Positions 1,797 through 5,790 of a stretch of 15,460 nucleotides of DNA are shown here, piece after piece; position 1 is the first letter of the stretch; each line of letters opens with the position of its first letter. The notes beneath the pieces are model-generated. The model was not told the origin of the DNA. It ran no database searches and saw only the letters and a list, made by a program, of their open reading frames with translations. Source of the stretch: Holdemanella sp. (GTDB lineage: Bacteria; Bacillota_I; Bacilli_A; Erysipelotrichales; Erysipelotrichaceae); assembly GCA_021442845.1 (NCBI GenBank), contig JABUSD010000297.1, forward strand, positions 1 through 15,460. The letters run 5' to 3'. The position numbers and the translations under genes are program-made.

Positions 1797-1828
1797 ATAA
1801 AAAAACTTTCATCCAAAGGACGAAAGTT
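1797..1828 (-). terminator. Intrinsic terminator of the his T-box leader
   Basis: On the minus strand AACTTTCGTCC, loop TTT, GGATGAAAGTT form an 11-bp stem with one G-U pair, followed by a T tract. It sits directly after the T-box sequence and before the hisZ ribosome site, as required for tRNA-controlled attenuation. Confidence 0.9.
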
Positions 1829-2030
1829 AACTTACGTGGTTCCACCTTATTTCACTGATAAAAATACCAGCCTCAAACCCTTAACGCGGGATACGATATA
1901 AACTACTCTAGTTCATCTATATAGCTCCAAGATGTGTTCAATAAAGGCCACTCTTCTTTTTCACCAGCCAAGAAGTCTCTACAAGCTTACTTTATCTACT
2001 ATTTCTTATCATCGCAATCTTTATAATACT
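1797..2030 (-). promoter_or_regulatory. T-box riboswitch leader, probably histidine-specific
   Basis: This leader RNA reads uncharged tRNA and decides whether transcription continues into hisZ-hisG. Several elements can be read directly. The T-box core AAGGTGGAACCACG is at 1848-1835, close to the consensus AGGGTGGNACCGCG. A terminator lies just downstream. The Stem I distal arm CTTCTT/AAGAAG, with loop GGCTGGTGAAA, is at 1975-1953. An AGTA lies on the 5' side of the specifier loop, with GATAAAG (5') pairing CTTTATT (3') above it. The 3' side reads GAACACA, placing CAC (His) at 1936-1934. The downstream his genes agree with a histidine specifier. The variable base of UGGN is A, which would pair with U73 rather than the C73 usual for bacterial tRNA-His; see findings. 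Confidence 0.92.
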
Positions 2031-3400: not shown

Positions 3401-4089
3401 CTATTTATTCAAATAGTATTTTGTAGATTTACCAATTCCATCTTTTGATAAGATATTCATTTCAATCAATCCATTTAGAATACGAATGGATTTTGCCTTT
3501 CCTAACTTGCTTCCTGCTTCAATATAATGACGGGATAAGCGAAGATTATCCCCAAATAAGCTTATAATCCGTCGTTCATCTTCAGTGAGGGAACATCATT
3601 TTCAATTGCAGGAAGTTCCCTATAAATAGAGTTCTCATAGACTCTATAGACGGGCTTTCTTTTTGATGTCTTATATGTCTTATTGATTCGTTTTATACCT
3701 GTACCAAATCGTTCGATATAACGAAGGCGAAAGAATAGATTTCCAACGATTGGATTTCGTAAGATGGAAACCTGTCCATCCAGATATTCCTTTTCACTTA
3801 AACCAGCACGAAAAGCAATTTCAATGCGATCATCAAACATGCTTATACGGATAAAACTTTGAACATCCCAATATCGATGCACAAAGGCATTGGCAATTGC
3901 TTCACGAAAAGCTGTTTCAGGTATACGCTCCATCTGTTTGCGATAGGCTCCCTCTATCTTTTCATATTGGTAATAAGTACGATGCATATCCAGTGCCTTA
4001 TCATACATTTCTAAAATAGACATATTTTCAAGAATGCGTCGATCGTTAATTTCATCAATATCTTTTCCAAATCGGATACTATCAATCCC
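3401..4089 (-). pseudogene. Remnant of AlbA_2/HATPase-type DNA-binding regulator, truncated and frameshifted
   Basis: The intact family has an N-terminal AlbA_2 domain, a GHKL-like ATPase region and a C-terminal winged helix. Here the reading frame opens without a start codon just after a TAA at 4092-4090 and reads GIDSIRFGKDIDEINDRRI. It continues through family-like blocks PETAFREAIANAFVHRYWD and RNPIVGNLFFRLRYIERFGTG. The AlbA_2 domain is missing. Near 3587 the frame is lost: the main frame stops at 3562, while the -1 frame continues LTEDERRIISLFGDNLRLSR as a winged-helix tail to a TAG at 3401. One extra C in the GTTCCCTC run would rejoin them. A few residues of the glycine-rich loop also seem missing (RAGLSEKEYLDG). 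An ATG at 4023 could start a 153-residue fragment, but with no clear ribosome site. Non-functional decay is the best reading. Confidence 0.85.
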
Positions 4090-4294: not shown

Positions 4295-5230
4295 TTAAAA
4301 TTTGCGCCAACATTTTTCCTTCAAGAATGTTTTTATTTCTTCATTGACGCTATCTTCATAATAGGCTACAAGAAGGGCTTTAAATTCAGAAACGATACCC
4401 TCTGGTACTACTAAAAGTCCAATTCCATGTCCTATCATAAAATGATTTGCAAATATTATAGCCGCCCTTTTATTTCCATCGATAAAGATCTGTGATTTCA
4501 TACAATATAGGGTAAGATTAATTGCGATATCTATGTCTTCTAACCCCGAATGTAGTATCTCATCAATTCTCTCTTTTACATCTAATTCATTTGGAATTGG
4601 TGGCACATAACTTGAACCTCCTATAGTAACGGGTACACCTCTAACAGATCCACCATTTTCAAAAAAACCTTCATTCACCAAACGTGCTATGTGACTAAGC
4701 AGATAATAATTGCAAGGTGATGCTACTACATCTGGATCCACGATAAATTCCCATGCATGTTTTAGATTAAGTATTTTCTGCACATCACTTGCTTTCACAC
4801 CGTTTACCACTCCATTTTCCAAAATCGTCTCTGTTTGTGGAAATGTTGTGGAAACGCCTTCCAATACTGCTTGATCATAAATCAAACTCTTCACATTAGC
4901 TCTTGCAAAATCTATATTAAGTTTTACTCTTGGTGTCAGTTCACTTTCTACATAGCCTAGTTTAGCAAGTTCCTTTTCAATTGCTCTTAACCGTTTCTTG
5001 ACAGTTCTGATTTGCTGAGACTGATTAATTGCCATTGCATAAAGCTCATCAGAATATTTATCAATATAAGTAGACTTATACCTTCCAGCCTCTCTTTTTC
5101 TAACATAAATATATCTTTGTTCATTTACTGTTTTAACTTCAATACTACCATCAAAAGCAGAAATATTAACTTGTGCCTGCAAATCAGCTTTTTCATTTAA
5201 TAACTTTTGAATTTCTGTTATATTACTCAT
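4295..5230 (-). CDS. Fic-fold protein with degenerate active site (His to Gln)
   Basis: Fic domains transfer AMP or other phosphate-containing groups to proteins, usually through HxFx(D/E)GN(G/K)R. From the chosen Met the product is 311 residues. The N-terminal 95 contain a YIYVRKREAG-type segment and a probable coiled coil. TILENG near residues 135-140 aligns with the Fic inhibitory helix, but the usual Ser/Thr of [ST]xxxE[GN] is Glu. GGSSYVPPIPNE is the flap. The catalytic loop reads QIFIDGNKR: Asp, Gly, Asn, Lys and Arg are kept but the nucleophilic His is Gln (codon 4492-4490). Conventional AMPylation is therefore doubtful. The start at 5230 is preferred over the ATG at 5260 because AAAGGA lies 8 bases upstream and the predicted transcription start falls below 5260. 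Decayed genes flank it, suggesting an accessory, possibly transferred locus. A role in stress, defence or regulation is possible but unproven. Confidence 0.85.
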   Translation of the reverse strand: MSNITEIQKLLNEKADLQAQVNISAFDGSIEVKTVNEQRYIYVRKREAGRYKSTYIDKYSDELYAMAINQSQQIRTVKKRLRAIEKELAKLGYVESELTPRVKLNIDFARANVKSLIYDQAVLEGVSTTFPQTETILENGVVNGVKASDVQKILNLKHAWEFIVDPDVVASPCNYYLLSHIARLVNEGFFENGGSVRGVPVTIGGSSYVPPIPNELDVKERIDEILHSGLEDIDIAINLTLYCMKSQIFIDGNKRAAIIFANHFMIGHGIGLLVVPEGIVSEFKALLVAYYEDSVNEEIKTFLKEKCWRKF

Positions 5231-5238
5231 ACTATTAT

Positions 5239-5244
5239 TCCTTT
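5239..5244 (-). promoter_or_regulatory. Ribosome binding site deciding the Fic-like start
   Basis: AAAGGA, 8 bases before the ATG at 5230. No comparable site precedes the in-frame ATG at 5260, which lies inside repeat copy 1 and at the predicted transcription start. Confidence 0.65.
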
Positions 5245-5355
5245 TAGGGTGATTCTTCATATTTAATATACATAATAATCACCCTAAAAACAATACTTTT
5301 ACAAAATTTAGGGTGACTATTATCAAAGAAGTTTTACAATAATCACCCTAAATTA
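5242..5355. repeat. Four alternating copies of TTTAGGGTGATTATT, operator-like array
   Basis: Cores are AGGGTGATT at 5246-5254 (plus), AATCACCCT at 5277-5285 (minus copy), AGGGTGACT at 5310-5318 (plus) and AATCACCCT at 5341-5349 (minus copy). Extended matching to about 15 bases gives TTTAGGGTGATTATT. Orientation alternates strictly. Core centres lie 31, 33 and 31 bp apart, close to three helical turns, so all sites would face a similar side of the DNA. Copies 1 and 2, and 3 and 4, form two long inverted repeats. The array lies immediately upstream of the Fic-like gene, and copy 2 falls in the spacer of its predicted promoter. Best reading: binding sites for a repressor, possibly the Fic-like protein itself through its N-terminal domain. 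Confidence 0.85.
5265..5293 (-). promoter_or_regulatory. Predicted promoter of the Fic-like gene
   Basis: TTGTTT at 5293-5288 and TATATT at 5270-5265 with a 17-base spacer. The spacer contains repeat copy 2, so a protein bound there would block polymerase. The predicted start is near 5258. The -35 is weak (3 of 6 matches). Confidence 0.5.
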
Positions 5356-5407
5356 AATCATATGAAGTTGATTAATCCTATTATATGTATGATTCCGATT
5401 ATATTAA

Positions 5408-5527
5408 CTAAAATTCTTTTTCACAATTCTTCTTTGTCTTCACACCGATTAGGATGGCTACAATTGCCACAGGAATCATTCCTATGATACCATTTGAATC
5501 TTTTATGATTGGATAATAAAGAAGCAT
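5408..5527 (-). other. Small ORF with one membrane segment, probable remnant
   Basis: A 39-codon frame, beginning MLLYYPIIKDSNGIIG, then a hydrophobic helix (IPVAIVAILIGV) and a basic tail KTKKNCEKEF. The codon just before the ATG is a stop and there is no ribosome site. It could be the decayed C-terminus of a membrane protein or, less likely, a real small membrane peptide. I do not recognise a family. Confidence 0.3.
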
Positions 5528-5548
5528 CTATAGTATATGTATGTTTAA

Positions 5549-5690
5549 TTAAAAGCTAAGATTCTGATCTTTAGATGGCAATTCTTCAAATGATTGATTG
5601 TTTCCTTTTAATACAAGGCGTTTTAACACAACGACAAAAGAAGTCCTCATCTTCTATAAGTAGGTAGTTCACCTTATACTCTAAATACAT
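5549..5690 (-). other. Frameshifted coding-like remnant
   Basis: One frame from an ATG at 5690 reads MYLEYKVNYLLIEDEDFF and is lost soon after. An overlapping frame, with an ATG at 5650, reads on as KRLVLKGNNQSFEELPSKDQ to a TAA at 5551-5549. Joined by a frameshift they would make one tail of about 45 residues. The family is not recognised. It is interpreted as a decayed gene end, not a working gene. Confidence 0.3.
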
Positions 5691-5754
5691 ACTTTCACGC
5701 ATTGATATCACGTCATAAAACAATTATAGTATCATTGCATTATGATAGATACGC

Positions 5755-5783
5755 AAATAAAAAACAGCGATTGCTCGCTGTTT
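5755..5783 (-). terminator. Intrinsic terminator of the division cluster
   Basis: On the minus strand AAACAGCGA, loop GCAA, TCGCTGTTT form a 9-bp stem followed by TTTTATTT. It begins 8 bases after the ftsZ stop and closes the mraZ-to-ftsZ unit. Confidence 0.9.
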
Positions 5784-5790
5784 GTAAATC

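Follow-up and report, generated by a model that had tools for sequence, protein, structure and literature searches.

How is a Fic protein controlled when it stands alone, with no antitoxin gene at its side? For solitary Fic proteins this is largely an open question, and it is raised by a contig of Holdemanella sp. (JABUSD010000297.1, assembly GCA_021442845.1; its whole 15,460 nt are called the window here), where a Fic-like gene of 311 residues is preceded by an array of four operator-like sites. We find that the array quite probably represents two inverted-pair operators of the Fic family, with the Fic protein predicted to repress itself through its N-terminal domain. The operator is conserved across a large Fic family, and its half-site is coded by lineage.

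Two inverted pairs in front of the Fic-like gene

The natural unit of the array is a 10-bp half-site, TTTAGGGTGA, which is identical in all four copies. The half-sites form two inverted pairs of 46 nt each (5243-5288 and 5307-5352) upstream of the gene. The features of the locus are listed below.

5243..5288, no strand: proximal operator, inverted pair TTTAGGGTGA-N26-TCACCCTAAA, found at a similar place in relatives
5243..5252, plus strand: half-site 1, touching the ribosome site (sequence match)
5279..5288, minus strand: half-site 2, within the inferred -35/-10 spacer (sequence match)
5307..5352, no strand: distal (auxiliary) operator, the second 46-nt inverted pair; an upstream distal pair also occurs in relatives
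5307..5316, plus strand: half-site 3 (sequence match)
5343..5352, minus strand: half-site 4 (sequence match)
5288..5293, minus strand: inferred -35 hexamer TTGTTT (family-consensus promoter, register fit in relatives)
5265..5270, minus strand: inferred -10 hexamer TATATT, after a 17-bp spacer (family-consensus promoter)
5238..5243, minus strand: inferred ribosome site AAGGAA (sequence reading)
4295..5230, minus strand: Fic-like gene, 311 residues, start codon at 5230, stop codon at 4295-4297 (PF02661, 26 bits, cut-off 24)
4937..5230, minus strand: N-terminal domain, residues 1-98, the predicted DNA-binding part (precomputed PF20586, DUF6788)
4298..4936, minus strand: Fic core, residues 99-311, with a FICD-like fold and Gln247 for the catalytic His (fold and alignment)

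An earlier, sequence-only reading had described the sites as near-identical 15-mers noticed nowhere else in the window. They lie at 5243-5257 (plus, one mismatch), 5274-5288 (minus), 5307-5321 (plus, one mismatch) and 5338-5352 (minus); a recount bears out the alternating orientation and the centre distances of 31, 33 and 31 bp, and no other match was found in the window with up to three mismatches allowed. Four such matches were reached in 4 of 200 shuffles, at positions scattered anywhere. Outside the array, the organism's own genome has one further 15-mer place at up to one mismatch and four more at two. As the total of nine places compares with 20 for a reversed control, scattered single 15-mers show no excess. 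Two instances of the inverted pair (TAGGGTGA-N22..29-TCACCCTA) were counted in this genome, both of them at the array, and none of its reversed control; this is not the large number of genome-wide copies that characterises repeats of the repetitive extragenic palindrome (REP/REPIN) kind.

Conservation and confinement of the pairs

Conservation was assessed in 80 genome loci with relatives of 58-81% identity. The upstream regions of the window, of 78 of these 80 loci and of 22 of 29 new loci from a phylum-wide genome search (101 regions together) were compared, and an inverted pair is present in 98 of the 101, under written rules that were set after data inspection. A rule-free inverted-repeat score, compared with 303 shuffles, lay above their 95% level in 83 of the 101, in a few cases through a repeat other than the operator. 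Relatives do carry the array, whose absence from orthologues the sequence-only reading had named as a refutation. The regions with no pair are L209, L217 and L221, and in the sequence of L209 and L217 one can see near-miss pairs of TGTGAAAC or TGTGTAA.

The relatives share the anatomy of the upstream region, often with an altered half-site. Pairs of the GGG type (87 loci) are spaced at 32-35 bp, with 8-mers starting at about -57 and about -24 from the ATG, and the 11 pairs of the TGTG type are spaced at 22-23 bp (eight loci) or 33 bp (three). The helical phasing proposed earlier holds up as even spacing within a pair (33 or 22-23 bp), while phasing between pairs stays at the level of a suggestion. 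An upstream distal pair is found in 45 of the 98 regions having a pair. When the proximal and distal pairs of one locus are compared, their half-sites are 97% alike, a figure partly imposed by the rules, and their spacers 37% alike, as expected of protein sites.

In 11 loci (L016, L017, L019, L023, L027, L032, L055, L079, L086, L207 and L208) a pair of the same or nearly the same half-site lies 3' of the Fic stop codon. It is 2-5 bp from the stop in eight of them, overlaps the stop in L019 and lies at 39 bp in L023, which is the only one of the 11 that also has an upstream distal pair. Neither a distal nor a post-stop pair accompanies the single pair of 40 of 96 loci.

The proximal pair keeps a nearly fixed relation to the inferred promoter. 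In 64 of the 87 GGG-type loci the best-fitting -35/-10 starts at -8/+15 of the proximal half-site, the window's own values are -7/+16, and a promoter fit shifted one register upstream was worse. This promoter agrees with the consensus at 8 of 12 positions, and a generic scan gives two more promoter-like sites on the minus strand farther upstream (5426-5398 and 5407-5380). Taking the inferred promoter, one copy of the motif does fall within the spacer and another at the ribosome site, as had been claimed. With one half-site between the two promoter hexamers and the other at the ribosome site, the pair occupies a classical repressing place.

We also asked where else in genomes the pairs occur. 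Across 50 relative-bearing genomes, the GGGAAC-type pair (TAGGGAAC-N22..29-GTTCCCTA) was found 79 times, in 45 genomes, and its reversed control never. Of these pairs, 74 belong to the Fic gene, falling in an interval that begins 200 bp ahead of the gene and ends about 170 bp beyond it, so the array is not the genome-wide repeat that the sequence-only reading had named as a possible refutation. The five genomes with no GGGAAC pair are of the GGGTGA type, and each has a GGGTGA pair. Six of 392 genomes of the phylum have a GGGAAC pair: three at an intact Fic gene, one at a Fic deletion relic, one at a Fic gene truncated where the contig ends and one solitary. A Fic match at E <= 1e-15 is found in 45 of the 392; in many of these the half-sites differ or the N-terminal domain is lacking.

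Solitary pairs are located at L126:2991-3031, L127:6245-6284, L128:3065-3105, L129:3008-3048, L130:3032-3072 and L246:5042-5082. Fic remnants were sought at L246, L126 and L128-L130, and the one match, in L129, is weak and far from the pair. The deletion relic, L245:4798-4959, joins Fic residues 1-35 to 274-305 behind an intact pair. Viral contigs contain 54 stretches with a pair, of which one adjoins a Fic gene and 30 lie inside an open reading frame (ORF) of at least 60 residues; given the size of that huge collection, most are taken as chance.

The candidate binder and the rival explanations

The protein belongs to the Fic/DOC family (PF02661) by a profile score above the curated cut-off. 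Its N-terminal domain is built of a helix, three beta strands and a long helix; the DUF6788 profile (PF20586) scores 12.2 bits against a cut-off of 27.2, and a precomputed annotation assigns PF20586.4 to the window protein. The start codon at 5230 is shared with relatives of 79-81% identity, and a longer frame of 321 residues, starting inside the proximal pair, found no support from relatives. No helix-turn-helix (HTH) was recognised in the protein. A C-terminal one is absent, as the Fic core extends to the last residue, 311, and the extra domain is N-terminal.

The Fic catalytic motif is HxFx(D/E)GN(G/K)R. Its His is replaced by Gln247 in 69 of 69 aligned sequences, at the position that aligns with the His of FICD, and the DGNKR loop is retained despite this loss. 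Class II Fic proteins have the inhibitory motif (S/T)xxxE(G/N) ahead of the core; here Glu124-Gly125 is found in 69 of 69 sequences, yet Gln120 stands in the Ser/Thr position in all 69. At least 7993 relatives of the protein were scored, with or without the N-terminal domain. Among plasmid records, 428 have a match and none covers 80% of the query; those among the matches listed start at residue 94 or later. Phage records gave no DNA match and two partial protein matches. It should also be noted that the Fic core weakly matches PDC-S04, a candidate phage-defence family of PADLOC (E 0.0009; 7.8e-5 in L018).

Several results point to this protein as the binder. Across Fic lineages the half-site classes are GGGTGA, GGGTGC, GGGAAC and TGTGAAAC. 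In the tree of Fic cores, the GGGTGA/C sequences group in a clade of 9 (100/97) and the TGTG sequences in another of 10 (100/100), with TGGGG forms in several places. The class tracks the Fic lineage, not the host: by record titles the hosts span several families and, for some metagenome-assembled genomes, other phyla (binning of such genomes may err). Within the window's own host family we find GGGTGA (window), GGGAAC (L203 and L204; L201 with one GGGGAC half), TGGGGAAC (L207), GGGAAT (L205) and TGTGTAAC (L211), six genomes of this family using half-sites other than the window's.

No widely conserved neighbour was found. Among ORFs of at least 80 residues the best family (ABC ATPase-like by reading) occurs in 11 of 80 loci, and among ORFs of at least 40 residues within 1.5 kb, a limit that also takes in small antitoxins, the best family occurs in 6 of 78. 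By these counts no neighbouring antitoxin gene, as in type II toxin-antitoxin systems such as Phd-Doc and FicTA, was found. None of 17 Fic relatives that lack the N-terminal domain has an inverted pair in front of it, and the alignment columns associated with the GGGTG class are densest in that domain (13 of the top 20), an association that reflects one switch. Because the half-sites track the lineage, no neighbour is conserved and the pair is absent where the domain is absent, the Fic protein is likely the repressor, acting via its N-terminal domain. Both the promoter and this binder are inferred. The earlier proposal, self-regulation of the Fic locus with the N-terminal domain as candidate binder, thus gains computational support (98 of 101 regions; 74 of 79 pairs).

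The sequence-only reading had left room for a distant regulator, encoded by the host, that binds the array and has the Fic gene as its target. Such a regulator would fit the lack of a recognised HTH in the Fic protein, and the solitary pairs look regulon-like, two of them lying shortly before other starts (19 bp before an SfsA-like gene in L130 and 25 bp before a DegV-like gene in L127, both named by reading). However, the half-sites track the Fic lineage instead of the host, and nearly all pairs lie at Fic. Genome G149, moreover, contains both a TGTGTAAC-type Fic locus and the GGGAAC pair with the Fic deletion relic, and four genomes of the same genus that lack a close relative of the Fic gene gave no GGGTGA pair (in G001 there is one 23% match). 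We therefore regard a distant regulator as improbable.

Equally hard to sustain is the view of the pairs as sites of recombination or transposition that bound a mobile Fic cassette, and not as operators. The 11 pairs just 3' of the stop codon, the solitary pairs and the pair before the deletion relic would all suit a cassette. So would the state of the site (window positions 4295-5790) in three same-genus genomes: the 3.4-8.6 kb behind ftsZ contain no Fic gene there, and at this place the gene looks accessory. Against this, the pairs are placed by one promoter register and not by an element end, and at 40 of 96 loci just one pair is present. Half-sites are shared within a locus while spacers are not, so the pairs are not copies of one element end, and the lack of a widely shared neighbour means that no shared recombinase was found.

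Marginally less probable again is that binding of the array by the Fic protein activates its promoter, or both activates and represses it. The distal pair does lie at a possible activator position, and the pairs of the TGTG lineage lie at varied distances, but the pair whose position hardly varies lies over the -35/-10 spacer and the ribosome site. An action of the inverted repeats in RNA, as a hairpin attenuator or stability element, might be read from the repeats themselves and from their place 3' of the stop codon in some loci, but it is very improbable, as the -10 lies inside the spacer so that transcripts from the inferred promoter would hold one arm alone, the loops would be about 25 nt, the distal pair is upstream of that promoter, and neither a terminator-like site nor an Rfam match was found at 5180-5480.

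Elsewhere in the window, a T-box leader (1813-2021, minus strand, 126 bits) precedes ORFs 682-1845 and 35-682, which are histidine-synthesis-like by reading. A short ORF on the minus strand (3562-4023) has a match to HATPase_c_4 alone, which is the C-terminal portion of a helicase-like protein, and is perhaps a remnant.

Proposed mechanism and known systems

Under self-repression, a Fic dimer would bind a pair through its N-terminal domain and repress its own promoter. A single dimer would span both half-sites, which are separated by about three helical turns (in the TGTGAAAC lineage, mostly by two). With one half-site situated between the -35 and the -10, the bound dimer is predicted to block RNA polymerase. 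The additional pair, found upstream or, at certain loci, 3' of the stop, may serve as an auxiliary operator that adds cooperativity; its occurrence on either side of the gene suggests possible looping. Since the operator hardly occurs away from its own gene, the output would likely be the Fic protein itself, kept at low copy, with a possibly toxic or defence activity released on loss of binding.

More tentatively, these proteins may form a kind of one-gene Fic repressor in which a three-stranded beta-sheet N-terminal domain reads the operator, promoter and auxiliary operators loop the gene, and the Fic fold is a sensor. That doubtful but possible reading also takes in the His-to-Gln change throughout, a novel type of operator reader, and a loop opened by the Fic fold. 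As the operator code switches with the protein lineage, binding domain, specificity and regulon can be tested by swapping domains and half-sites. The results propose operator reading as a function for DUF6788-like domains, and they raise the question of what role the Fic fold has after the catalytic His is lost and the DGNKR loop kept.

In the literature searched we found no paper on DUF6788 or on the window's operator; the matches listed for the string TTTAGGGAAC were unrelated by title, and nothing on looping was relevant by title. In toxin-antitoxin autoregulation, including AbiEi, operators at a toxin-like locus are bound cooperatively by a separate antitoxin, whereas the window's family has no widely conserved partner gene. 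FICD/HYPE differs from the window protein in that its catalytic His is present in the aligned chains, and it is not known to carry an N-terminal domain of the window protein's type. The degenerate Fic2 of C. fetus is reported to retain the His. CbFic2 of Coxiella burnetii, a Fic protein with a winged HTH, binds random DNA tightly; it differs from the window system in this winged HTH, and the text covered describes no operator in its own promoter (PMC10628234).

The closest known case is CccR of Yersinia pseudotuberculosis, as described in the text covered (PMC9755527). This Fic protein with a DNA-binding domain represses its own promoter, and its footprint is 46 nt long, with 10-bp inverted repeats and a 26-bp spacer, near -35/-10. 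The HTH of CccR is C-terminal, its Fic domain modifies FtsZ, and its authors remark that little is known of the functions of class II Fic proteins and their modulation. The sequence-only reading had known of no described operator of this shape, which CccR corrects: both systems have the 10-N26-10 geometry and a wide inverted-repeat operator in their own promoter region. Unlike CccR, to the extent of that text, the window protein has an N-terminal extra domain, no recognised HTH and Gln for the catalytic His, and the operators of its family are often doubled or 3' of the gene and differ in half-site sequence. The window protein would work like CccR but belongs to another family. A Fic autorepressor with a 46-nt operator is thus of a known kind, while the predicted N-terminal reader, the Gln and the doubled operators are new.
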